Shown in pieces: positions 1-24,982 of a DNA stretch of 64,000 nt (the first letter of the stretch is position 1; every line of letters starts with the position of its first letter). Made by a program: the position numbers and the translations under genes. A model generated the notes under the pieces. The model had not been told where the DNA came from. It worked only from the letters and a program-made list of their open reading frames with translations, and searched no databases. Source of the DNA: Caulobacter vibrioides OR37 (lineage in GTDB: Bacteria > Pseudomonadota > Alphaproteobacteria > Caulobacterales > Caulobacteraceae); contig NZ_APMP01000002.1 in assembly GCF_000372645.1 (NCBI RefSeq), forward strand, positions 1 through 64,000. Direction: 5' to 3'.

Positions 1-1
1 G

Positions 2-295
2 TTCGATCGCGAACATCAGATCGGCCACGCTTACTTCATCAAGTGCGCTTCGCGGAACGACCTGGACGCCGTGATGCGCCACAGGGTCATTCCGCTGCTG
101 GCAGAGTATTTCTACGAGGACTGGAGCAAGGTCGCATTGGTGCTGGGCGATGCGGCCACAGACAAGCCTGGCCGGTTCTTGGAGCGCACGGAGCTGAAGC
201 CGCCCATCGGTCCTGACTTCGAAGGCGGCGAGACACGCTGGCGATGGACGGTGCGGAGCGAGTTCGCTACCGACGCCTACGCCGACTTCCAGTGA
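2..295 (+). CDS. mcrB: McrB-type AAA+ GTPase of the McrBC restriction system, C-terminal fragment (5' end outside window)
   Basis: The window opens inside this gene, so only the last 97 residues are visible. They start with FDREHQIGHAYF, close to the LDRxHQIGHSYF motif of McrB motor domains, followed by a helical segment (VIPLLAEYFYEDW) typical of the C-terminal lid. In McrBC systems McrB is the GTP-hydrolysing translocase that recruits the McrC nuclease to DNA carrying modified cytosine. The stop overlaps the GTG start of the next gene as GTGA, so the two are translationally coupled, as in known mcrBC operons. The N-terminal recognition domain, which sets specificity, is not visible. Confidence 0.8.
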   Translation, partial: FDREHQIGHAYFIKCASRNDLDAVMRHRVIPLLAEYFYEDWSKVALVLGDAATDKPGRFLERTELKPPIGPDFEGGETRWRWTVRSEFATDAYADFQ

Positions 296-1611
296 TCCGC
301 CGCACCGTCCTGGAATGGGGTTCGCTGCCCTACGGCAAGGGGAGCGACGCTATCTGTGAGAGCGCCGCTGACCGTCTTGTGGCGGTCGCGAGAGCTTCTC
401 CAATGGGCGGGAAAGACGGCGGCAGCATCCTCATCCATGGGCGTCGAGCTCTTGGCGCGCGGCAGGTGGTCGGCGTGCTCGCCGCTGATGGCGTTACACT
501 GGAGATTCTGCCCAAGATCGACGTATCGGGAGCCGACGGGGCCGCAGCTCATGGCCAGATTCGACGCCGTCTGGTGCACATGCTGGCGGTTGCTCTGGAT
601 CTCGATATTGCCTCCGGCGCCATGACGGAACTGAGCTGGCAGAAGGAGACCCTGCTCGAAATCCTGATCGGCTTATTCGCCCGCAAGCTAGCGGACGAAG
701 TGCGCAAAGGCATGCCGCGTCGCTATTTGGCGCACGAAGACGATCTGACGACCTTGCGCGGCCAGCTGGACGTCACGCGGCAGTTCACGACCTTGATTGC
801 TCGCCCCGACCGCCTGGCCTGCCGCTACGATGACCTGTCGCCGGACATCCTGCTGAACCAGATCATGAAGGCGACCGTGGACCGGCTGATCCGCGCCTCG
901 GCGTCGGCTGAGAATCAGCGCCGGCTGCGCGAACTCGCCTTCTTCTATGCCGACATTCGCAGCTTACGGCCCAGCGCGTTGGCTTGGGACGGCCTAATCC
1001 TAGACCGCACCAACAACCGTTGGCGGGATCTGGTAGAGCTGGCCCGGCTCCTCCTCGGCCACCGCTTTCAAACCACCTCAAGCGGCTCCCAGAACGGGTT
1101 CTCGCTCACATTCGACATGAGCCGCTTATTCGAAGCCTATGTGGCGCGAAGCCTCAAGCGAGCGTTCAGCGGCACTGAGCTAACCGTCCACGCCCAAGGC
1201 GGCCGCCTCTACTGTCTCGAAGATGCGGAGACCGGAACAGGCCGCTTCATGACCAAGCCGGACATATTGGTGAAGCGGAAGGGTAAGGTCGAGCTGATCA
1301 TTGACACCAAATGGAAGCGCATTAGCCGCGCGGTTGACGACCCCAAGCGGGGCGTTAGCCAGGCAGACGTGTATCAGATGATGGCCTACAGCCAGCTTTA
1401 TCAGTGCCCAGAGCTTTTGCTGCTCTACCCTCATCATCGAGGGCTTGGTGAAGACGCCGGAGTGATGTCTATCCACTCGATCCGCACTACGTCCAGCTGG
1501 TTGCGGACGGCGACGATCGATTTGACCGACGCTTCACAACAGAGCTGGGGCGAGGCGGTAGGATCCAGCCGCTTCGGGCTTAGAGGGGACCCGGGATCCC
1601 CACCTTTCTGA
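292..1611 (+). CDS. mcrC: McrC-type nuclease subunit of the McrBC restriction system
   Basis: The protein has 439 residues from the GTG at 292, which overlaps the mcrB stop by four bases. An in-frame ATG at 244 lies deep inside mcrB and is unlikely. The N-terminal half is the McrC-specific scaffold that contacts McrB. The C-terminal half carries a PD-(D/E)XK nuclease core: Asp near residue 324 (KPDILVKR), then the IDTKWK segment with Asp338 and Lys340. McrC supplies the cleavage activity and stimulates McrB GTPase. The family is well known, but the target modification cannot be told from here. CcrM, encoded later in the window, makes N6-methyladenine, which McrBC is not known to attack. Confidence 0.85.
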   Translation: MIRRTVLEWGSLPYGKGSDAICESAADRLVAVARASPMGGKDGGSILIHGRRALGARQVVGVLAADGVTLEILPKIDVSGADGAAAHGQIRRRLVHMLAVALDLDIASGAMTELSWQKETLLEILIGLFARKLADEVRKGMPRRYLAHEDDLTTLRGQLDVTRQFTTLIARPDRLACRYDDLSPDILLNQIMKATVDRLIRASASAENQRRLRELAFFYADIRSLRPSALAWDGLILDRTNNRWRDLVELARLLLGHRFQTTSSGSQNGFSLTFDMSRLFEAYVARSLKRAFSGTELTVHAQGGRLYCLEDAETGTGRFMTKPDILVKRKGKVELIIDTKWKRISRAVDDPKRGVSQADVYQMMAYSQLYQCPELLLLYPHHRGLGEDAGVMSIHSIRTTSSWLRTATIDLTDASQQSWGEAVGSSRFGLRGDPGSPPF

Positions 1612-1730
1612 GTTCAGCTTTCGGGCCTTCGCCCAATGTCCGCTGCTTGAGCGCAGAAACCGAAGACTATGCCCCCTCGATTAACTTGAGGGTCCCTGGT
1701 TCGACTCCCCAAGCTTCTGACCTTAGGCCC

Positions 1731-1753
1731 GGCCTGCCATATGACGGCAGGCC
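1731..1753. terminator. Possible shared hairpin between convergent mcrC and the ParB/RepB-like gene
   Basis: Two perfect 8-base arms, GGCCTGCC and GGCAGGCC, flank a 7-base loop in the gap between convergent genes. There is no clear T-run on either side, so the call rests on position and stem strength only. The rest of the gap 1612-1864 holds no gene; a tRNA-box-B-like string lies near 1699-1709. Confidence 0.4.
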
Positions 1754-1864
1754 TAGCGGGCTTCAGCGGGTTCGCCGCCACTCCCGCCACCGCCATTGAT
1801 CCGTCCCTCCGGCGGCTTCTCCGACGGTCCCGGCGCTTTCGGGTCCCGGTCCCCATCCTCTAGA

Positions 1865-2761
1865 TCACGCCGCGGCCTGGACCTGATCCAAGGAGGCCGC
1901 AGCGACGATCGATCTGAAGTTCTCGAGTATCTCGGGGTGCCGAACGGCCAGGAACCGTTCGACCTCACGCTTGGAAAGCAGCCGCTCTAGAAAGCCCGCC
2001 GCGATAACGAGCAGGAGCATGTCGTCGCCGTAGGTGGCTTCGAGCTCTTTGTAGTCGTGGGTAACGGACGCCATCTCCCGCTCCAGCCGCGCCATCTGCT
2101 CAGTGGTGAGCCCAGTGGCCTTCTTCAGGTCCTCGGGACGATGCAGGTCGGCCGACTTGGTGGTCGCTAGCAGGGCCTTGGCGTAGTTGATGCTGTAGTT
2201 GTTGGCCGACACCATCAGTTCGGCCACCTCAAGCTGCCGGATCGGCTTCATCTTCCGCAGCTTGCTGAAGGTATGCGTACCGACCGGCTTGTCCTTCAGG
2301 AGCTCGGCGACGTCGGCGCTGATACCGTTGAGCAGGTCCCTCCGCTGCCGGATCACGCCGACATCCACGTTAAGCGCCCTGGCGAGTTTCTCTTCCGAGA
2401 CGCCCCTCTTCAGTGCACGAACGATCATGTAGTGCTCTTGGATCGTCGCGAGGCGATTGACCCGCTTGTTGTAGGTAAAGCCCTCGTCGTCGGAGGCGAT
2501 TAAGCAGCGAGCATCCGTGGAGCCCTGATCGCGCAGGGCGCTGAAACGCACGTGGCCGTCCAAGAGAAGATAAGGGCCGCTCCCCTTGGCGCGTGAGACG
2601 ACGAGCGGCTCCACGAGGCCCAACTGCGCGACTGACGCCGCGATCCGGCGGTACTTCGCCGACTCCTTGACCGCCACCGGCAACATCTTCGACGGCAGGA
2701 TGTCGTTGAGCGACAAGATCACGACCCGCTTTTCGAAGGCGATCTTGACCTCGTCCTGCAT
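1865..2761 (-). CDS. ParB-like protein with RepB-type C-terminal domain
   Basis: The 298-residue protein begins with a ParB/Spo0J N-terminal fold. Residues 15-30 match the LxxNDILPSKMLP start, and DGHVR at 68-72 corresponds to the GxxR nucleotide-binding box of ParB CTPases. A helix-turn-helix-like stretch follows near residues 118-135. The remainder resembles the C-terminal domain of RepB plasmid partition proteins. No ParA, RepA or RepC gene is nearby, so ordinary plasmid partition is unlikely. It is the last gene of a three-gene unit, two bases downstream of another ParB-like gene, and that gene in turn overlaps a serine recombinase gene. A role in controlling or assisting the recombinase is inference. 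Confidence 0.7.
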   Translation of the reverse strand: MQDEVKIAFEKRVVILSLNDILPSKMLPVAVKESAKYRRIAASVAQLGLVEPLVVSRAKGSGPYLLLDGHVRFSALRDQGSTDARCLIASDDEGFTYNKRVNRLATIQEHYMIVRALKRGVSEEKLARALNVDVGVIRQRRDLLNGISADVAELLKDKPVGTHTFSKLRKMKPIRQLEVAELMVSANNYSINYAKALLATTKSADLHRPEDLKKATGLTTEQMARLEREMASVTHDYKELEATYGDDMLLLVIAAGFLERLLSKREVERFLAVRHPEILENFRSIVAAASLDQVQAAA

Positions 2762-2763
2762 GG

Positions 2764-3645
2764 TCAGCTCCGATCGTAGCCAATGCGTTCGGCCAGCGCC
2801 GTCGGAACCGAACCGACGCCTTCGGCCCGCATCAGAGCCACGAAATGATCGTCGGCGAGCAAGTGCTTGAGAGCGTTCGTCACAAACATCAGCCGGCCCT
2901 GAGTCAGCGAGGCGCGTTTGGCCAGTTGGCGCTGTCGTTCCGTCTCGCGCTGATAGGCGCGGATCAGCGCCTCCGACGTCACCTGTTTCCCACCTCGGTG
3001 CGGGCTGTTCCTGCGGTGTAGGCCTTTGCCGCTGGCGTTGCGCTGCTCGATGATCTGGCGGATGGCGAGCACCTGGTTGCCGGGGATCGCCTTCTCTTCG
3101 TAAGCCTTGGCGAGGGCCTGCTGCACCTCACCCTCCTTGGCCTTGGCGATCTCCATGGCGATTGTGTGAGGGATGACGCCGCGCTCGACGGCGTTGATCA
3201 ATTTCTCCTCGCCGTTCTCAAGCAGGTAGCAGATCGCGTAGACGTACTCGGCGCTGAAATCGACCTTCGCGGCGATCTCCTGGTAGCTGTAGCCACGCTC
3301 ACGAAGAGCGCCGATCGAGCGGACCAGCTCCAACGGCGTGTGCTGGCGACGAGCCAGGTTCTCGACCAGGCTCATCACGAAGCAGTCGTCTTCGCTCGCG
3401 TCGATGATGATCGCCGGAATCTCGGTCTGGCCCAGCGCCATGAACGCTTCGAGCCGGCCTTGCCCACAGACGAGATCATAGCGCGGCTTACCCGGGCGCT
3501 GGCTGACGGTGATCGGCTTCTTGAGCCCGAGATGGGCGATGCTGGTGACGAGCTCCTGGAAGATGCGCCGGTTACGGACCCGAGGGTTGATCACCGTGAT
3601 GGCGTCCACCGGCACCATGCGGACCTCCGGCGCGACCTGGGTCAT
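2764..3645 (-). CDS. ParB/Spo0J-like DNA-binding protein
   Basis: The 293-residue protein has the ParB N-terminal layout: IxxINPRVRN at 17-25, the GQGR box at 61-64 (family GERR) and ENLARR at 95-100 (family ENxQR) followed by TPLE. A helix-turn-helix fits residues 115-137 (YSYQEIAAKVDFSAEYVYAICYLL region). These boxes form the CTP-binding pocket in characterised ParB proteins. Its ATG overlaps the stop of the upstream recombinase gene as ATGA, so the proteins are made in coupled amounts. The C-terminal 80 residues are basic and not a recognisable ParB dimerisation domain. No partner ParA is seen. Confidence 0.75.
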   Translation of the reverse strand: MTQVAPEVRMVPVDAITVINPRVRNRRIFQELVTSIAHLGLKKPITVSQRPGKPRYDLVCGQGRLEAFMALGQTEIPAIIIDASEDDCFVMSLVENLARRQHTPLELVRSIGALRERGYSYQEIAAKVDFSAEYVYAICYLLENGEEKLINAVERGVIPHTIAMEIAKAKEGEVQQALAKAYEEKAIPGNQVLAIRQIIEQRNASGKGLHRRNSPHRGGKQVTSEALIRAYQRETERQRQLAKRASLTQGRLMFVTNALKHLLADDHFVALMRAEGVGSVPTALAERIGYDRS

Positions 3646-5207
3646 GCGGCACGCAGCGCCGTGCGCCGGGTCAGATCGACAAAGCCATCAAGGTCGTCGA
3701 AGCGATAGGCATCGAGCCCCGCATGATTGTAGGGCGCCAGCCGAAGGTTCGGCGCGGCGCCAAGGTCGATCCACGGGAGCAGGTAGTAGTCCCGCACTGT
3801 GGTGTTGTCGGCGCCCATCCTGGCCGCGATGGTGATGTCGGGCCTAAGCCCCTGATCGAGGCGGACCTTCCAGCGTAGGCTGCCGGCGGCCGTCAGCTGG
3901 CATCGAACGATCACCAGTGAAGCGCTGAACTCGTCGTTAATGTGCAGCAAGTCGGTGTGCTGGTCCCGTTCGACACTGGCGCCGGCGCTACGAATGTTGT
4001 CGATCACCCCGGCGACGACTTCCGGATGGAGAGCTCTCAGGGCGCGATTGGTCTCGATGTAGCGATAGTCCCGCGCCGGCGAGAAACCGACTAGCTGGTA
4101 GGCGCGCAGCAGGCTGCCGAAGCGGTGTCGGAACGTCGAGCTGGACGGCATGTCCTCGATCTCGTCGATCACCAGGCCCGATAGCCAGCCGCGCTGGCTG
4201 AGCAGCGACGATAGCTGCTCCAGGAGCTGCTGATCGGTGAACCGTCGGCTTCGATCGAAGATGATCCGCTGCGCGGCCTCGAAGAAATCCGGCTCGACGA
4301 TCCCTTCGAAGGCGCCGTCGGCGCGCACCCACATGTCGGGATCGTTGGTGACGCGTTTGGCCTTCAGCTTGAAAGAGACGCGATTGTAGACGTTGTTGCC
4401 GATGTACTTCTCGTTGGTCAGGATCTGGTGGACGACGCCCCGCGTCCACGGCCTGCCAAGGTCCGTGACCAGGCCCTCGGCATTCAGGAGAGTGGCGATC
4501 TCGCTCTCCGACCGGCGCTGCAGAACAAACATCCGATAAAGGCGCCGGACGATCTCCACCTCCTCGGGCGGGCCCGGACGGAGCACCACGCGGTCGGTTT
4601 GAAGGCTTTTGTGCTCGCCGCGAGAAAGCTCGGCTTTCGGGGCGCCGTGCTCATCGACCAACAGGCGCCGCAGGCCGTAGCCAGCGGGGCCGCCTTGGCG
4701 AAAGCCGAGCGTGATCAGGCGGCACTGGCCGCTGAATACCTTGACCGAAAGCTCGCGGCTGTACTCACCAGCCATGGCGCGCTTCATGCTCTTTATGATC
4801 GTGGAGCTGAGGCTGCCGTCGTTTTCGAACTGCTCGGCACAGTAGTGGACCGAAATGCCGGCTTCGCGGCACACATACTCATAGAAGCCGCTCTCATCGG
4901 CGTCCTGGAAGCGGCCCCAACGGCTGACGTCGTAGACGAGGATCGCCTCGAAATCCGCGGCGCCGGCGCGGACATCAGCGATCAGGCGTTGGAGCGCCTG
5001 GCGGCCATCCAGACGCAGGCCGCTCTTTCCCTCGTCGGCGTAGGTCCGCACGATTTCAAAGCCGCGTCGCGCGGCATACTGCGCGATCGCGTCTTCCTGA
5101 TTACTGGTGCTGTAGCGCTGGTGTTCAGTGCTCATGCGCACGTATTGAGCGGCGCGCACGATCTTGCGCTCGATCACCGCTTCGTTGCTCGCGCCTACCT
5201 GCAGCAT
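3642..5207 (-). CDS. Large serine recombinase
   Basis: The product has about 521 residues from the ATG at 5207; a GTG at 5219 would add four. The resolvase catalytic domain occupies roughly residues 15-160, with catalytic Ser26 in YVRMS, Arg24 next to it, and a second arginine cluster in DVSRWGR near 93-99. A Recombinase domain spans about 190-300 (PAGYGLRRL, then LNAEGLVTDLGRPWT and ILTNEKYIGNNVYNR). The C-terminal 200 residues lack the usual zinc ribbon and coiled coil of phage integrases and are specific to a subfamily seen with ParB-like partners. It probably moved this island or still does. It leads an operon with two ParB-like genes and is divergent from the gene at 5278. Confidence 0.85.
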   Translation of the reverse strand: MLQVGASNEAVIERKIVRAAQYVRMSTEHQRYSTSNQEDAIAQYAARRGFEIVRTYADEGKSGLRLDGRQALQRLIADVRAGAADFEAILVYDVSRWGRFQDADESGFYEYVCREAGISVHYCAEQFENDGSLSSTIIKSMKRAMAGEYSRELSVKVFSGQCRLITLGFRQGGPAGYGLRRLLVDEHGAPKAELSRGEHKSLQTDRVVLRPGPPEEVEIVRRLYRMFVLQRRSESEIATLLNAEGLVTDLGRPWTRGVVHQILTNEKYIGNNVYNRVSFKLKAKRVTNDPDMWVRADGAFEGIVEPDFFEAAQRIIFDRSRRFTDQQLLEQLSSLLSQRGWLSGLVIDEIEDMPSSSTFRHRFGSLLRAYQLVGFSPARDYRYIETNRALRALHPEVVAGVIDNIRSAGASVERDQHTDLLHINDEFSASLVIVRCQLTAAGSLRWKVRLDQGLRPDITIAARMGADNTTVRDYYLLPWIDLGAAPNLRLAPYNHAGLDAYRFDDLDGFVDLTRRTALRAA

Positions 5208-5277
5208 CACGCACACCACGCTTGGCTTTGGGCCGAAAGGTCTTGCGGAAAGTCAGCGTAAGCGCGGGAGTGAGTGA

Positions 5278-5658
5278 ATGTCTTTTCAGAAAATGGACCG
5301 AAATTTTCAGTCCAAAAAAGGAAAATCTTTTCACGCCGACAACGGGCATGATGACCGGCCATTCGCCGTGTCGATCGCCATGGCCATGCTGGCCGAGTGG
5401 GGCGAGTCCTCCTCGGCGCGCAAGGAAGTCGGGCGCATTACCGCGGCGAATGAGCGGACGGTCCGCAACTGGTTCGAGGGGCGCAACGGCCCGAGCGGCG
5501 AGAACCTCGTCGCCCTCGTCCGCCACTCGGACGCGGTGTTCGGGACGGTTCTGGAACTGTCTGGCCGCCAGGCGCTGCTGCCCGTCGCCGGCATCCTCGG
5601 ACTACGAGACCAGCTCGACGCCTTGGTCCACGCCATCGACGAGCTGCGCGTCCACTGA
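5278..5658 (+). CDS. Small helix-turn-helix-type protein, divergent from the recombinase
   Basis: The 126-residue product has a helical core with a plausible helix-turn-helix at about residues 55-75 (AANERTVRNWFEGRNGPS), like XRE-type regulators. The first 20 codons are AT- and lysine-rich, unlike the rest, and the GTG at 5368 or an internal ATG could be the true start. The ATG at 5278 follows a GGGAG-like site at about 10 bases. It faces away from the recombinase with about 70 bases between the two starts, so it could regulate that operon. Function not recognised beyond DNA binding. Confidence 0.6.
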   Translation: MSFQKMDRNFQSKKGKSFHADNGHDDRPFAVSIAMAMLAEWGESSSARKEVGRITAANERTVRNWFEGRNGPSGENLVALVRHSDAVFGTVLELSGRQALLPVAGILGLRDQLDALVHAIDELRVH

Positions 5659-5688
5659 GCGACGCTCCGAAGGCAGTAGTCGGCTTTG

Positions 5689-5811
5689 GGCCAGTCTTAA
5701 GTTGTCGACATCCCTTTCGGGGCCAGCGTTAAGTGGTGGCCCTAAGTTGTCGATTTGCGCCTCTTCATAAAAATCAATGTCTTACGCGGACCGCGTTAAG
5801 TGGTCCCGACA
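5689..5811. repeat. Cluster of four short repeats, consensus TTAAGT(T/G)GT, at the island edge
   Basis: Copies start at 5697 (TTAAGTTGTCGAC), 5729 (TTAAGTGGT), 5742 (CTAAGTTGTCGA) and 5796 (TTAAGTGGTCCCGAC). They lie between the last island gene and the first core-type gene. Several spaced copies of one short motif resemble the multiple terminal repeats of IS21-family ends or a recombinase binding array; which one cannot be settled here. Confidence 0.6.
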
Positions 5812-5838
5812 CGCCAGGTGTCGCGATAAGCCCCCCCG

Positions 5839-8682
5839 TCAGCGACAGAAGGACCGCGTCGCGAGCAAGGCTTCGCGGTTGCGCGCGAGGTTTTCGCCGG
5901 TGCGGGCGATCGGCTCGGGGCCCTTTCCCAAACCCCGCCACAAGGCCGTGTTGAACCGCGCGGTGTCCAGCTGATCCTCCTTGGCGAAGTTCTGGCCGGC
6001 CATGGCGTCCGCCCAGAACGCGGCGGTCCTCACCGGGCAGGCTTCGCCCGTCTGGACAGACTCGAAGCGGTCGGCGGGGATGGGCAAATCCGTCGCCTTC
6101 AGCACGTCGGACGCGACCGCGCGGTAGGACCAGGTCGGGGACTGATCGAGGTCGAAGACATCGGCCATGGGCGGCGTCATCCGCGCATTGAGGCTCAAAG
6201 GCTTGAGGCCCAGCAGATCGCCGATCGAGCGCACCATGCTGACCGTCGTGTAACGCGTCGAGACCACCGCCTTTTGGCGCACATAGGCGCCCAGCACGAA
6301 GGCGATCGAACGGCGCGCGTCGACGTGGTCGGCGCCGTTCTGGGCGTCGTCCTCGATGATGAACACCACGGTCGACTTGGCGAAGGGGCTGTTGGCCAGG
6401 GTTTCCAGCACGAGACCGACCGAGAAGTCGTTGTCGGCCATCTGGGTCTCGACCGTGTTGACCCGGTCAAGCGCGTCCTTGAAGTCGCCGAAGTGATCGT
6501 GGCTCAGGCGCAGGAGGGTAAGGCTGGGCATGGCCCCGCGCTTGACCTGCGCCGCGAACTCGCGCCGCCACTCCATCACGCGCCAATAGTCCGCCAGACG
6601 CTGATCGAAGCCGCGGAAATAGGGATCGCTGCGGGTCGCCAAAAGCTTGTCGGTGGCGGTGTGGATGCGCGTGTGGGTTTTCCAAGGCTCGCGCAGCGGC
6701 GCGACATCGCCCGGTTCGCCCTGGTCGTAGACCGATGCGTCGGCCATGCCGTAGTTGCGCACCGAAACACCCGCCTTGATCGCGGCGCTCCACAGGAAGC
6801 CAGCGCCCTTGGCGTCGTCGTCGTCCCCATCGGCGTCGGGGGCCGTGAGCAGGGCCTTTCCGGGCATCAGATCCGGATCGTTCGGCGTCGCCGGATTAGT
6901 CGCCCGGCGTTCGGCGAAACCTAGCGCCGTCGGCACATTGCGGTCCGCCTGCTCGGCCTCGTAGGAGAGCCCGCGCCCCGAATAGTTGACCGGCGCCGTC
7001 TTCTCGAGAAGGTCCGGCGCGCGGGCGGCGGTGGTCCAGGTCCATCCCGTGCTCGACTGCTCGCCGCTGTCGTAGAAATTGTCCAGGGTGACGAACTGTT
7101 CGGCCAGACGGTGGTGATTGGGGGTCAGGCGGCGGCCGAGGATCGCGAGACTGGGGTCGCCATTGCCGACGGGCAGATCGCCGAGCACCTGATCATAGGT
7201 GCGGTTTTCCTTGATGATGAACACCACGTGTTTGATGCGCTTGCGCAGCTCAGCCATGGTTCTGGCGGCCGCCGCGCGCTCCCGCGCCCTATCCGCGCCC
7301 AGGTTCTTCGCCACTTGCGCCGTGGTCCGCGCAAGCGCCGCGCCGGACGGCAGCGGAAAGGTCAGCAGGCCCGCCTTCTCGAGCTGGAACACATACTGAT
7401 TGGCGGCGCCGCAAGCGCTGGCCTGCGACTTGATCGACGCCACCTTGGGTCCGCAGCCTCGCGGATTGGGGCCCGGCGGGCTCTTGCGGTTGATCACGAA
7501 GGCGCGCCCGGCCGCCGGGTCGAAGGCGACCCCGCTCGGATACCAGCCGGTGGGGACGGCGCCCGCGGTCTTGCCATCCGCCGACAGGACGAGCAGCGCG
7601 TTGACGCCGCCCAGCGTGACCAGCAGGCGCCCGTCCGGCGTGAGCGCCAGGCCATTGGGGTTCAGGCCCTTTCCAGCGGAAGGATCGAGGCCGGGCAGCG
7701 CGAGTTTCCATTCCGCGATCAGCCGCCCCGCCTCGACGTCCGCGACCGCGACGCGGTCGGCGTTGTCCTCCGCGGCGTAGAGCCGCCGGGCCTTCCCATC
7801 CCAGAGCAGCGCGGTCGGTTCGCCGATCGTCGCGATCCGGCCAGTCACCTCGACGCCGTCCGCCGTGACCCGCAGCAGGACCAGTTGTCGATCGCGCGGG
7901 GCCGAGACCACCGCGTGGGAAGCGTCCGTCCAAACGACGGCGAACGGGAATTCGCCGCCCGGCGCGCCGACCCGCGCCGGATCATTCTTGCCCGGGCGCA
8001 GATCGCGTTCGGAAATCACCTGGCCCTTGGTCAGATCGATCAGGCTGACCGAGTCGTTGTAGTAGTTCGCGACCAGAGCGCGGGCGCCATCGGGGCTGAC
8101 TCCGACGCCGGCGGCTTCGGGCTTCACATTGACGCCGTTGCCCTGGGCGTGACCCAGCTTGACCGGGCCGCCGGCCGCGGGGCGGAACCCCTCGGGGGTC
8201 CGAACAAAGCGATGGACGTTGTCGTCCACGCCGCCGCCGACGAGAAATCCGTTACCGTCGGGCGTCCAGGCCACGCCGGAAAAGCTGTTGGGCGTCTGAA
8301 CCGTCTCGAGGAAACGCGCGCCGGTCGGTTCGACGGCGTAGCGGAAGACATAGTCCGTGGACTGTCCTGCGACGACCTTGCCATCGGGGCCGTTCACGCG
8401 GTTGAAGCCGCTGGTGAGCACCAGCACCTCGCGGCCGTCGGGGCTCAGCGCGATGGCCGAGGCGCCGTCCGCCAAGGTGTCGGGGAGCGGACCGATACGC
8501 GCCGGAAGCGGTTCGAAGACCGCGCCCGGCGCGGCGAGTGGCGTCAGCATCTGCCCGGTGGGCAAGGGCGTTGGCCCCGCCGCGTTCGACGCGGCCTGGG
8601 CGGGCGACAAAAGCGACCAGAACACGAACGCCGACAAGATCGGCGCCGCTCGACGTCCGATGCCCGATTTGAAACGCGCCAT
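5839..8682 (-). CDS. Secreted beta-propeller plus phosphoesterase (alkaline phosphatase family) protein
   Basis: The 947-residue protein starts with a signal peptide (residues 1-31, cleavage after PAQA). Residues about 45-440 form a YVTN/YncE-type beta-propeller with repeats such as SPDGREVLVL, TPDGNGFLVGG and TPDGRLLVTLGG. From about residue 480 a phosphoesterase domain begins (HVVFIIKENRTYDQVLGD) and continues with DNFYDSGEQSSTGW and the metal-binding-type FIIEDDAQNGADHVDARR. This fused architecture is known in alphaproteobacteria; the substrate is not. A strong site, GGGAGCGGGAC, precedes the ATG. It probably acts in the periplasm. It reads toward the island and has no clear operon partner. 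Confidence 0.85.
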   Translation of the reverse strand: MARFKSGIGRRAAPILSAFVFWSLLSPAQAASNAAGPTPLPTGQMLTPLAAPGAVFEPLPARIGPLPDTLADGASAIALSPDGREVLVLTSGFNRVNGPDGKVVAGQSTDYVFRYAVEPTGARFLETVQTPNSFSGVAWTPDGNGFLVGGGVDDNVHRFVRTPEGFRPAAGGPVKLGHAQGNGVNVKPEAAGVGVSPDGARALVANYYNDSVSLIDLTKGQVISERDLRPGKNDPARVGAPGGEFPFAVVWTDASHAVVSAPRDRQLVLLRVTADGVEVTGRIATIGEPTALLWDGKARRLYAAEDNADRVAVADVEAGRLIAEWKLALPGLDPSAGKGLNPNGLALTPDGRLLVTLGGVNALLVLSADGKTAGAVPTGWYPSGVAFDPAAGRAFVINRKSPPGPNPRGCGPKVASIKSQASACGAANQYVFQLEKAGLLTFPLPSGAALARTTAQVAKNLGADRARERAAAARTMAELRKRIKHVVFIIKENRTYDQVLGDLPVGNGDPSLAILGRRLTPNHHRLAEQFVTLDNFYDSGEQSSTGWTWTTAARAPDLLEKTAPVNYSGRGLSYEAEQADRNVPTALGFAERRATNPATPNDPDLMPGKALLTAPDADGDDDDAKGAGFLWSAAIKAGVSVRNYGMADASVYDQGEPGDVAPLREPWKTHTRIHTATDKLLATRSDPYFRGFDQRLADYWRVMEWRREFAAQVKRGAMPSLTLLRLSHDHFGDFKDALDRVNTVETQMADNDFSVGLVLETLANSPFAKSTVVFIIEDDAQNGADHVDARRSIAFVLGAYVRQKAVVSTRYTTVSMVRSIGDLLGLKPLSLNARMTPPMADVFDLDQSPTWSYRAVASDVLKATDLPIPADRFESVQTGEACPVRTAAFWADAMAGQNFAKEDQLDTARFNTALWRGLGKGPEPIARTGENLARNREALLATRSFCR

Positions 8683-10804: not shown

Positions 10805-11587
10805 CTATCGCGGCGCCATGCGGATGCCGCCGTCGAGGCGGACGTCCTCGCCGTTGAAGTAGCCGCAGGTGATCATGGTCACCGCCAGCTGGGCGTATTC
10901 CTCGGGGTTGCCCAGGCGCTTGGGGAACGGCACCGAGGCCGCCAGGCCCGCCTTCACCGCCTCGGGCGCGCCGTTCATCAGCGGGGTGTTGAAGATCCCC
11001 GGCAGGATGGTGTTGACGCGGATGCCCTCGCCCATCAGGTCGCGAGCGATCGGCAGGGTCATGCCGACCACGCCGCCCTTCGACGCCGAATAGGCCGCCT
11101 GGCCCATCTGGCCGTCCTCGGCCGCCACCGAGGCGGTGTTGACGATCGCGCCGCGCTCGCCGTCCTCCAGCGGCGCCAGGTCCAGCATCCCCTTGGCCGA
11201 CTTGGCGATGCAGCGGAACGTGCCCACCAGGTTGATCTGGATGATGCGGTCGAAGGCGTCGAGCGGGAAGTGCTTGGTCTCGCCGGTGGCCTTGTCGCGG
11301 CTGGCGGTCTTGGCCGCGTTGCCGGTGCCGGCGCAATTGACCAGGATCCGCTCCTGCCCATGGGCGGCGCGGGCCTTCTCGAAACCGGCGTCGACGTCGG
11401 CGTCGCTGGTCACGTTGACCTTGCAGAACACCCCGCCGATCTCCTTGGCGACTTCCTCGCCCCGCGCTTCGTTCATGTCGAAGATCGCGACCTTCACCCC
11501 TTGGGCCGCCAGGGCGCGGGCGGTCGCCTCGCCCAGCCCCGAAGCGCCCCCCGTGACGACGGCGGCGACGGTGTTGTCCAGTTTCAT
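10805..11587 (-). CDS. SDR, 3-hydroxyacyl-CoA dehydrogenase type II-like
   Basis: The 260-residue protein carries TGGASGLG at 12-19, NCAG at about 85-88, and YSASKGG at about 166-172. The extended stretch between residues 92 and 110 (ASRDKATGETKHFPLDAFDRII region) and the LPGIFNTPLM motif match the HSD10 branch, which oxidises 3-hydroxyacyl-CoA with NAD. Position nine bases after a thiolase gene fits the last two steps of beta-oxidation: this enzyme makes the 3-ketoacyl-CoA that the thiolase cleaves. Substrate range is not visible. Confidence 0.9.
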   Translation of the reverse strand: MKLDNTVAAVVTGGASGLGEATARALAAQGVKVAIFDMNEARGEEVAKEIGGVFCKVNVTSDADVDAGFEKARAAHGQERILVNCAGTGNAAKTASRDKATGETKHFPLDAFDRIIQINLVGTFRCIAKSAKGMLDLAPLEDGERGAIVNTASVAAEDGQMGQAAYSASKGGVVGMTLPIARDLMGEGIRVNTILPGIFNTPLMNGAPEAVKAGLAASVPFPKRLGNPEEYAQLAVTMITCGYFNGEDVRLDGGIRMAPR

Positions 11588-20597: not shown

Positions 20598-20627
20598 GGC
20601 GACGCCCCCAGAGGATAGGAGAGCAAG

Positions 20628-20897
20628 ATGGCTCACAAAAAATCTGGCGGTTCGTCCAGCAACGGCCGCGACTCAGAGTCGAAGCGCCTTGGCGTGAAGA
20701 AGTTCGGCGGCGAGAAGGTTCTCGCCGGCAACATCCTCGTGCGCCAACGCGGCACCAAGTTCTACCCGGGTTCGGGCGTGGGCATGGGCAAGGATCACAC
20801 CCTCTTCGCGCTCGTGCAGGGCGCGGTAGGCTTCGTGACCAAGAAGCACAACCGCACCTACGTGACCGTGACCCCGGCCGCTCAGCCGGCCGAGTAA
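20628..20897 (+). CDS. rpmA: 50S ribosomal protein L27
   Basis: The 89-residue protein is a complete L27: [55 protein letters not shown]. Its N-terminus reaches the peptidyl transferase centre in bacterial ribosomes. The start is MAHKKSG, with no cleavable Firmicutes-type leader. A GATAGGAGAG ribosome binding site precedes the ATG. Second gene of the rplU operon, closed by a terminator. Confidence 0.97.
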
Positions 20898-20962
20898 GCA
20901 CGAACCAGAGTTCTTCGGGATCGTGCTTCTCACACAGAAGACGATCCGGACAGACGATCTCT

Positions 20963-20999
20963 AGCGGGGAGTCCGGAACGCCGGGCTCCCCGCTTTTGT
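20963..20999 (+). terminator. Rho-independent terminator after rpmA
   Basis: AGCGGGGAGTCCGG pairs with CCGGGCTCCCCGCT (one G-T pair) around an AACG loop and ends in TTTTGTTTTG. Confidence 0.9.
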
Positions 21000-21090
21000 T
21001 TTGTCTCGTCGCCGCCACGAAAATCGAAAGCTTCGCCATGGCGGCGTCACGGTCTCCGACGAGAAGGGACCGGAACTCTGGGAGGCGCCG

Positions 21091-21624
21091 ATGTGCGTCA
21101 TCGAACAAAGACCCGTCATCGAGACCGAGCGGCTGACGCTGCGCGCGCCGCGTCGCCATGACGTCGAGCGCGTGGCCGCCTTCTGCGTCGACCACGACGT
21201 CGCGCGGATGACGACGCGGATGCCCTCGCCCTATACCCGGGCTCACGCCGAGGACTTCGTGGCCCGCTGCGGAACCCAGGACCGGTCGCGCGACAACACC
21301 TTCGCGATCGAACTGGCGGACGAGGGCCTGATCGGGGTGGTCGGAATGTTCACCCACCTCGATGGCCAGGTGGAGATGGGATACTGGATCGGCCGGCCCT
21401 ACTGGGGCCGAGGCTACGCCACCGAGGCGGCCAAGGGCGCGCTCGACTGGGCCCGCGCGACCTGGAAGAAGCGCTACGTCACCGCCGGCCACTTCGCCGA
21501 CAACGCCGCCTCGGGCCGCGTGCTGATCAAGGCCGGGTTCCTCTACACCGGCGTCGTCGAGCACAAGCCGTCGATCGCGCGTGGCGAGCCCGCGGCGACG
21601 CGGATGATGGTGTGGCTGGCGTGA
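21091..21624 (+). CDS. GNAT-family N-acetyltransferase
   Basis: The 177-residue RimJ/L-like protein contains IETERLTLRAPRRHDVERV, then MGYWIGRPYWGRGYATEA, the acetyl-CoA loop at about residues 100-117, and a closing NAASGRVLIKAGF block. The ATG at 21091 has GGGAGG eight bases upstream; the open frame extends to 21001 but the extra residues are not family-like. The stop TGA directly abuts the stop of the convergent gene at 21625. Substrate unknown. Confidence 0.85.
   Translation: MCVIEQRPVIETERLTLRAPRRHDVERVAAFCVDHDVARMTTRMPSPYTRAHAEDFVARCGTQDRSRDNTFAIELADEGLIGVVGMFTHLDGQVEMGYWIGRPYWGRGYATEAAKGALDWARATWKKRYVTAGHFADNAASGRVLIKAGFLYTGVVEHKPSIARGEPAATRMMVWLA

Positions 21625-24982
<3,358 letters not shown>

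Follow-up and report, generated by a model that had tools for sequence, protein, structure and literature searches.

A serine recombinase and two ParB-like proteins, here called RepB1 and RepB2, are a conserved system, and together with a small divergent gene they probably make up a stand-alone integrative mobile element of ~3.8-4 kb. The copy described here lies in the window, a stretch of 64,000 nucleotides of Caulobacter vibrioides OR37 DNA. Genome comparisons show that otherwise near-identical replicons differ at one site by a unit with just these genes, and that the unit recurs as a discrete block in different contexts. An earlier note on this DNA had called the module undescribed, and no published description was found in the literature searched.

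The gene calls of that note stood: three genes on the minus strand overlap or nearly touch, with the recombinase gene (3642..5207) overlapping RepB1 (2764..3645) by 4 bp and RepB1 separated from RepB2 (1865..2761) by 2 bp. The three-gene module it proposed was as claimed but missed a fourth gene on the plus strand (5278..5658), which belongs to the unit. This fourth conserved gene, recognized by tblastn and ORF clustering, encodes a probable DNA-binding regulator of 126 aa for which no Pfam family reached the cut-off. PADLOC gave no match for any module protein. The recombinase (521 aa) combines a Resolvase domain bearing the catalytic Ser and Arg with a Recombinase domain after it (PF00239 and PF07508; 3.6e-23 and 9.9e-22), as expected of a large serine recombinase. 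Its residues Y22, R24, S26, D93, R96, and R99, which we take to have catalytic roles, are invariant in 46 aligned sequences, confirming the assignment of Ser26 made from the window alone. In these domains and in the catalytic serine it is like the large serine integrases (PHROG 95; SPbeta YokA, PDB 9dxh; TnpX), but, as had been proposed, it lacks their C-terminal zinc ribbon. No Pfam match to the zinc-ribbon model (PF13408) was found at E up to 1, the last 200 residues match no Pfam family, and the only invariant cysteines among the 46 sequences, C113 and C123, both lie in the N-terminal part.

Noc, ParB/Spo0J, and KorB are CTP-dependent DNA clamps. RepB1 and RepB2 each have matches to structures of Noc and Spo0J (for RepB2, Noc structure 7ol9 at 5.5e-9), and RepB1 matches KorB as well. 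RepB1 (ParB_N, 2.8e-11; RepB, 5.6e-27) would qualify as a ParB-type CTPase, having both the GxxR and the ENxxR boxes in alignment with Spo0J and Noc, with G61, G63, R64 and E95, N96, R99 invariant in 46 aligned sequences. RepB2 (RepB, 7.7e-45; ParB_N, 0.0052, below the cut-off) keeps the first box as DGHxR, with D68, G69, and R72 invariant in 46 sequences, but its second box is altered to YNkrV instead of ENxxR. Judged by these motifs, the earlier view of two CTP-switch proteins is well founded for RepB1 only. The RepB-type C terminus, attributed to the second ParB-like protein, is indeed present there, but it is found in the first one too: both have the PF07506 domain of repABC plasmid RepB above cut-off, and they are the sole PF07506 matches (E up to 0.001) across the 4.43-Mb genome. 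At the same time, RepB1 scores 37.5 bits against a TIGR03454 equivalog cut-off of 201.5, and RepB2 has no TIGR03454 entry.

Membership in the RepB/ParB families, together with location on plasmids, could mean that the unit is a partition or stabilization module for plasmids and islands, built on ParB without ParA. We regard this as highly improbable. One RepA and one ParA query matched only 2 of 104 loci, in both ~6 kb away, and neither matched in the 64-kb window; ordinary partition is therefore unlikely, as had been argued from the absence of ParA, RepA, and RepC. Whereas ParABS and repABC loci include a ParA or RepA ATPase, the module lacks one, and it has no RepC; RepB1 and RepB2 instead share an operon with a recombinase, to which they are fixedly tied. 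Agrobacterium plasmid pAt C58, a carrier of the unit, has its own RepABC, and one relative is inserted into a comM-type gene. The ParB-like proteins likely have a role in DNA mobility rather than plasmid segregation. The system offers a concrete context beyond segregation in which ParB-like proteins lacking a ParA can be tested. It also suggests that many database genes named "plasmid partitioning protein RepB C-terminal domain-containing" are unrelated to plasmid partition.

The three genes are usually linked, as the co-occurrence check suggested earlier required of a true module. Among 289 genomes of the class, the order recombinase-RepB1-RepB2 is intact at 19 of 21 places where the recombinase occurs; of 86 loci spread over several phyla, all have RepB1 after the recombinase and 81 have RepB2. 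Correlations between the identity matrices of the proteins (0.76, 0.77, and 0.90) were not equaled in any of 2000 permutations, indicating co-inheritance. A tight recurrent module is supported by these comparisons, and the result is a small self-contained recombinase system present in several phyla. A relative of the divergent gene was found upstream by tblastn in 52/86 loci, a count for which divergent orientation alone was searched; by free ORF clustering its family is present in 67/105 loci, and on the opposite strand in all 67. A recombinase with 45% identity occurs without RepB proteins in genome G178, and a RepB2 relative occurs without recombinase in G175. These two cases, and the presence of the regulator in just 52 of the 86 loci, are points against a four-gene unit.

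Evidence of movement comes from Sinorhizobium sp. K101, where a 3,887-bp insert with these four genes only interrupts a comM/yifB-type gene. The empty site is found in a Sinorhizobium meliloti replicon with ~96% identical flanks and a 4-bp overlap (L177 versus L183), and insertion with a short shared core is a further likeness to large serine integrases. K101 thus offers one clean target site. As a general target comM was rejected: it recurs at one other of 104 loci (L106), where the gene is interrupted at that same residue but the module lies 8 kb away. The second good empty site, and there are two only, is on pAt, where a second copy of 3.9 kb (L006, 9454-13357) lies between degenerate 21-bp direct repeats, and a pAt plasmid without the module has a single 21-bp motif at the site. 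The right flank of this empty site has no counterpart. In a third case (L008/L164) the difference includes one extra gene and lies between ~75-bp repeats found elsewhere on such plasmids. The precise presence or absence at one site that marks an integrative element is seen for the relatives L177/L183 and pAt and not for the window copy. Among the matches listed from two genera, no clean empty site was recognized. The K101 and pAt units also change an earlier idea: rather than governing a larger island, the module is probably a small mobile element itself.

Consistently, relatives L191 and L192 are 96.2% identical over 3,805 bp and differ in their immediate flanks, which marks a discrete block; L142/L143, L124/L125, and L095/L098 are further such blocks. 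Longer common blocks, which speak against a stand-alone element, were found in L080/L081/L084/L085 (4.4-6 kb to the left), L135/L137 (to +7.2 kb), L082/L087 (to +5.3 kb), L144/L146 (to +4.1 kb), L089/L090 (to +9.5 kb), and L042/L075 (over 9 kb). Repeats around the unit exceeded shuffled sequences in 12/97 loci when direct and in 9/97 when inverted, and there is therefore no general excess of direct repeats. A repeat score of at least 17 was reached by direct repeats in 5 of 111 comparisons (L160 twice) and by inverted repeats in 1 of 114. The block limits of 11 pairs showed no convincing direct repeats, open frames at block limits gave no clear result when searched for interrupted genes, and terminal overlap indicative of a circular form was seen in none of 11 short contigs.

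The unit could instead be passive cargo that depends for its movement on other integrases, Tn7-like transposases, or homologous recombination, with its own recombinase doing something else, such as inverting DNA. Integrases are indeed annotated near some copies (a site-specific integrase ~24 kb off in pAt C58, others 5-6 kb off in pAtCFBP6624 and ~1 kb off in Roseomonas), a second canonical serine recombinase adjoins the L051 copy, and a neighboring Fic unit, which other plasmids share on its own, also begins at the 21-bp motif seen on pAt. We nevertheless think this explanation quite unlikely: the unit's recombinase is the only recombination gene in the K101 insert, and in the empty replicon the genes on either side are annotated as housekeeping genes.

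The window copy itself probably travels as a passenger on a putative Tn7-like transposon that carries defence genes, and lies at its right end. The right end of this transposon (5689..5811, minus strand) contains four TTAAGTKG-type repeats and has the terminus TGTCGGGACCACTTAACGCGG, read inward; beyond 5811-5813 related Caulobacter copies are no longer homologous. A similar end in the opposite sense (18/21 bases, E 0.14) is located at G000:C3:222619, and the tns-type genes of the carrier, with a Thoeris pair, are probably those at the end of contig C3. In the window's genome, which has a contig gap between C3 and C2, TniB scored above cut-off, TnsA and Mu-C below, and TniQ had no match. In related locus L077 the TnsA, Mu-transposase-C, and TniB models were above cut-off with no TniQ match; in L042 TniB was above cut-off and TniQ below. 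An McrC-type restriction gene outside the unit (244..1611, plus strand; Pfam McrBC, 7.1e-75) is probable transposon cargo. No target duplication was seen at the carrier ends. An empty site for the window copy is not shown by G339: its sequence aligns with the host side beginning at 5824, but the genes next to it map elsewhere in the window's genome, to contig C1. Gamma-mobile-trio elements, which use a tyrosine recombinase, are alike in having three linked genes including a recombinase and in being rich in defence cargo.

In Tn5053/Tn402-like elements, tniR resolves cointegrates. The Caulobacter unit is convergent to a tniQ/tniB/tniA/tnsA-type operon at a transposon end, the unit of Agrobacterium pAtCFBP6624 adjoins annotated TniQ, TniB, and Mu-transposase-C genes, and many copies are on plasmids. 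The recombinase might accordingly use a site close by to resolve cointegrates or multimers, with the ParB-like proteins as accessory site-binding factors. This is unlikely, since the three tni-type families occur in just 9, 8, and 7 of 105 loci, some counted twice. With its tnsA/B/C-type genes and repeat-bearing ends, the probable carrier of the window copy resembles Tn7-like and Tn5053-like transposons; in most loci examined, none of these gene families was seen in the flanks covered. A resolvase also leaves unexplained the lone unit inside a comM-type gene.

For the stand-alone element, we infer the following mode of action. The serine recombinase would cut and join attachment sites at both element ends and in the target. 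The unit, unlike large serine integrases, encodes no separate small directionality factor and fixedly pairs its recombinase with two ParB-like proteins; therefore RepB1, RepB2, or the regulator would have to supply control. RepB1, of Noc/ParB type with intact CTP motifs, and RepB2 may bind paired palindromes between the regulator and the recombinase. From this position they could repress the operon, reach the ends to help synapsis or set direction, or do both. Tentatively, the two proteins, loaded by CTP at these internal palindromes, could provide both synapsis and directionality for a zinc-ribbon-less serine recombinase, a DNA clamp replacing the classical directionality factor. Plasmids and transposons would carry the unit from cell to cell; for the window copy, the carrier would be the Tn7-like transposon with defence cargo.

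The paired palindromes are candidate binding sites. Palindrome I (GGACCGAAATTTTCAGTCC, 5295..5313) is a candidate loading or operator site; in 34/104 loci (a few of them counted twice) its consensus is present at -104 to -225 relative to the recombinase, against 7 other matches in all loci. Palindrome II (AGGAAAATCTTTTCAC, 5319..5334; consensus CGGAAAnnnTTTTCCG) is about 22 bp from it. The pair scores at least 18 in 25/103 loci compared with 2/308 control stretches, the consensus being drawn from the same loci. The earlier suggestion of a DNA loading site for the ParB-like proteins thus gains a conserved palindromic candidate inside the module, where they could load.

At the other side of the unit, just past RepB2, a terminator-like inverted repeat with 8-bp arms (1731..1753) lies beside the end of the block common to related Caulobacter copies (1722-1730). 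A tRNA T-arm-like motif at the outer unit edge (GGTTCGACTCCCCAAGC, 1698..1714, plus strand), possibly an attachment-site remnant, bears by eye a weak resemblance to the 21-bp repeats that flank the pAt copies; a motif scan allowing up to 4 mismatches missed it in the window. The motif was rejected as a universal attachment site: among 104 loci it is on both sides only in L006 and L159, plus L163. In the last of these, on pAt1D1460, the 21-bp motif scan gave two additional sites at a distance from the unit, one with 2 mismatches and one with 4.

The serine recombinase (3642-5207, minus strand) and the two ParB-like proteins RepB1 (2764-3645, minus strand) and RepB2 (1865-2761, minus strand) were confirmed on the sequence at the places assigned by an earlier note, and family profile searches supported the assignment of all three. 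As had been claimed, the recombinase lacks a zinc ribbon: no zinc-ribbon model matched it. The RepB-type C-terminus ascribed to the second ParB-like protein is present there but is not confined to it; PF07506 was found in both RepB1 and RepB2, and nothing else in the 4.43-Mb genome matches it. RepB2 also matches, over nearly its whole length, phrog_31451, a phage family of unknown function (3.8e-57), and therefore has relatives in phage records.

The proposed linkage of the three genes was borne out in a survey of the class (289 genomes; E at most 1e-60 for the recombinase and 1e-20 for RepB1 and RepB2). At 21 recombinase places, RepB1 was found at 20 and both RepBs, in the same order, at 19; the two misses are G178, where the recombinase is 45% identical and no RepB was found nearby, and a contig edge (G287:C34). 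Reciprocally, the recombinase adjoins 20/20 RepB1 places and 19/20 RepB2 places, the exception being the RepB2 of G175. In a wider scan with one genome per species (best 80 of 232 relatives, plus six viral contigs), RepB1 followed the recombinase in 86/86 loci, some RepB1 being cut by contig ends, and RepB2 did so in 81. It was missing at four contig edges (L118, L139, L141 and L158) and from L079, a disrupted-looking locus with only a partial RepB1. When the window's recombinase was aligned with 45 non-redundant picks from the 77 complete sequences of these loci, Ser26 was invariant in all 46. The identity matrices of the three proteins are correlated (0.76, 0.77 and 0.90; as high in 0 of 2000 permutations).

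Hosts of the module include Alphaproteobacteria, Planctomycetota, Verrucomicrobiota, Acidobacteriota and one Binatota bin; in the recombinase tree, copies cluster largely by phylum, with Acidobacteriota at two places. A 13-kb record labelled as a Lactiplantibacillus plasmid (L004) holds a proteobacterial-type copy, perhaps through contamination or mislabelling. In two Planctomycetes (L129, L151) tRNA gene arrays, of 11 and 28 genes, are found close to the module, and in G066 a second, canonical serine recombinase adjoins it (L051 12904-14658).

The fourth gene (5278-5658, plus strand) encodes 126 aa, is divergent from the recombinase and matched no Pfam family; its size and position suggest a regulator. 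Relatives occupy the equivalent position in 52/86 loci (tblastn, divergent orientation only), and free ORF clustering placed an ORF family there in 67/105 loci, on the opposite strand in all 67. The clustering also returned a small cysteine-rich protein gene, co-oriented with the recombinase and ~500-800 bases before it, in six loci (e.g. L158).

No RepA, RepC or ParA query (one each) matched the window, in line with the reported lack of a partition partner. Against the flanks of 104 loci, the RepA and ParA queries gave matches in two loci, ~6 kb away, and the RepC query gave none. We found no description of this gene set in the opening parts of abstracts of the open-access literature searched, nor in passages of PMC10853773; this absence is not proof of novelty, because most subscription papers and preprints lie outside that literature.

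Among loci with similar DNA, many pairs have in common a block from about -450 to -900 to about +3270 to +3630 relative to the recombinase start, outside which the DNA differs. G326 and G313, for example, share 3,805 bp at 96.2% identity between unlike immediate flanks; farther left they have another 2 kb in common (91%). The right limit of the L152/L153 block is a contig end. Cargo or common descent also plays a part, since longer blocks are shared within the L080 group, by L135/L137, L082/L087, L144/L146 and L089/L090, and by the transposon copies L042/L075. No general excess of direct repeats was seen between the two sides of the unit (12/97 loci direct versus 9/97 inverted).

An insertion was delimited in Sinorhizobium sp. 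K101 (L177) by comparison with the empty site of S. meliloti Ak57 (L183). The left match extends to L177 7451 and the right resumes at 11339, the two overlapping by 4 bp; the insertion point lies inside a gene of L183 annotated as YifB/Mg-chelatase-like, where it falls on the codons of the NLLMVGPPGSGKS stretch. Strains C101 and M103 are identical with K101 over 17.5 kb. By tblastn, the insert contains the regulator, recombinase, RepB1 and RepB2 only. Recombination at the unit ends by its own recombinase is the simplest reading, since the K101 insert holds no other recombination gene. A comM-type gene in L106 is interrupted at this residue too, 8 kb (8095 bases) past the recombinase start; the junctions are similar (CTGCT|AAGTTTGTG versus CTGCT|AACGTTGTG), in opposite orientation.

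The Agrobacterium plasmid pAt C58 is ~92.5% identical up to the unit, on the left flank, with a module-less A. salinitolerans pAt; the case is weaker because the right flank has no match in that plasmid. Sites resembling CGCCTTGAAnGGArTTGAACC occur twice in 46 kb of pAt C58, exactly at the unit ends, whereas the module-less plasmid (45 kb) has a single one, in the corresponding position. pAt1D1460 has two exact sites at the unit ends and two elsewhere with 2 and 4 mismatches. In L163, a Fic-gene unit adjoining the module (20607-23015) begins at the same 21-bp motif, with none seen at its other end; this unit alone is common to Shinella, Rhizobium and another Agrobacterium plasmid, possibly as part of a cassette array. 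In Sphingobium, L008 differs from L164 by an insert of the module plus one extra gene between ~75-bp leader-like repeats (L008 ~2717-2792 and 8379-8505), one further copy of which lies on the L164 plasmid.

The window begins at base 1 of contig C2, and its homology to the Caulobacter copies L042, L043 and L044 ends at 5811-5813, the point at which L042 and L075 also diverge; L042 and L043 have ~44 more bases in common beyond it. The terminal 125 bp of the window copy, which read inward TGTCGGGACCACTTAACGCGG, contain four repeats. TniB- and transposase-type genes come after the unit in L042 and L077, together with a TnsA-type gene in L077; a TniQ match was under the cut-off in L042 and absent from L077. 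In the window's genome, tni/tns-type genes (scores above the cut-off for TniB and below it for TnsA and Mu-C, TniQ unmatched) lie at the extreme end of contig C3. An end similar to the window's transposon end (18/21 bases, E 0.14) occurs in opposite sense at C3:222619, with a ThsA/ThsB (Thoeris) pair between it and these genes; an McrC gene lies near the window start. G000:C3:222619-237066 (L182) and window 1-5811 probably make up a Tn7-like transposon that carries Thoeris (ThsA, ThsB) and McrC-type genes as cargo and is interrupted by a contig gap; that both stretches are parts of one transposon we infer. The bases flanking the two ends, AGCGC and CGCCA, showed no 5-bp target duplication. Three Caulobacter-genus genomes carry 220-280 bp of transposon-end-like sequence without the module (L045 9654-9877, L046 9944-10165, L047 9959-10183), mutually 86-88% alike, which may be solo transposon ends or a small repeat.

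Both ParB-like proteins had been called CTP-switch proteins. This fits RepB1, in which both CTP motifs are kept (G61, G63, R64, E95, N96 and R99 invariant, aligned to Spo0J and Noc); in RepB2, G69 and R72 are invariant but the ENxxR box is altered to YNkrV. Fixed linkage, conserved motifs and conserved palindromes suggest that RepB1 and RepB2 may act on the recombination. The palindrome GAC[C/T]GAAnnTTTCGGTC is found between -104 and -225 relative to the recombinase in 34/104 loci (a few duplicated in the set), with two further matches at -624 and five elsewhere, and a second palindrome, CGGAAAnnnTTTTCCG, lies ~21-22 bp from the first. The pair scored at least 18 in 25/103 loci versus 2/308 controls, with a consensus derived from the same loci. 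Perfect palindromes with 8-bp arms were found in 15/103 upstream regions, versus 2 recombinase-gene controls and 2 shuffles. Both window palindromes fall within the first codons of the putative regulator gene.
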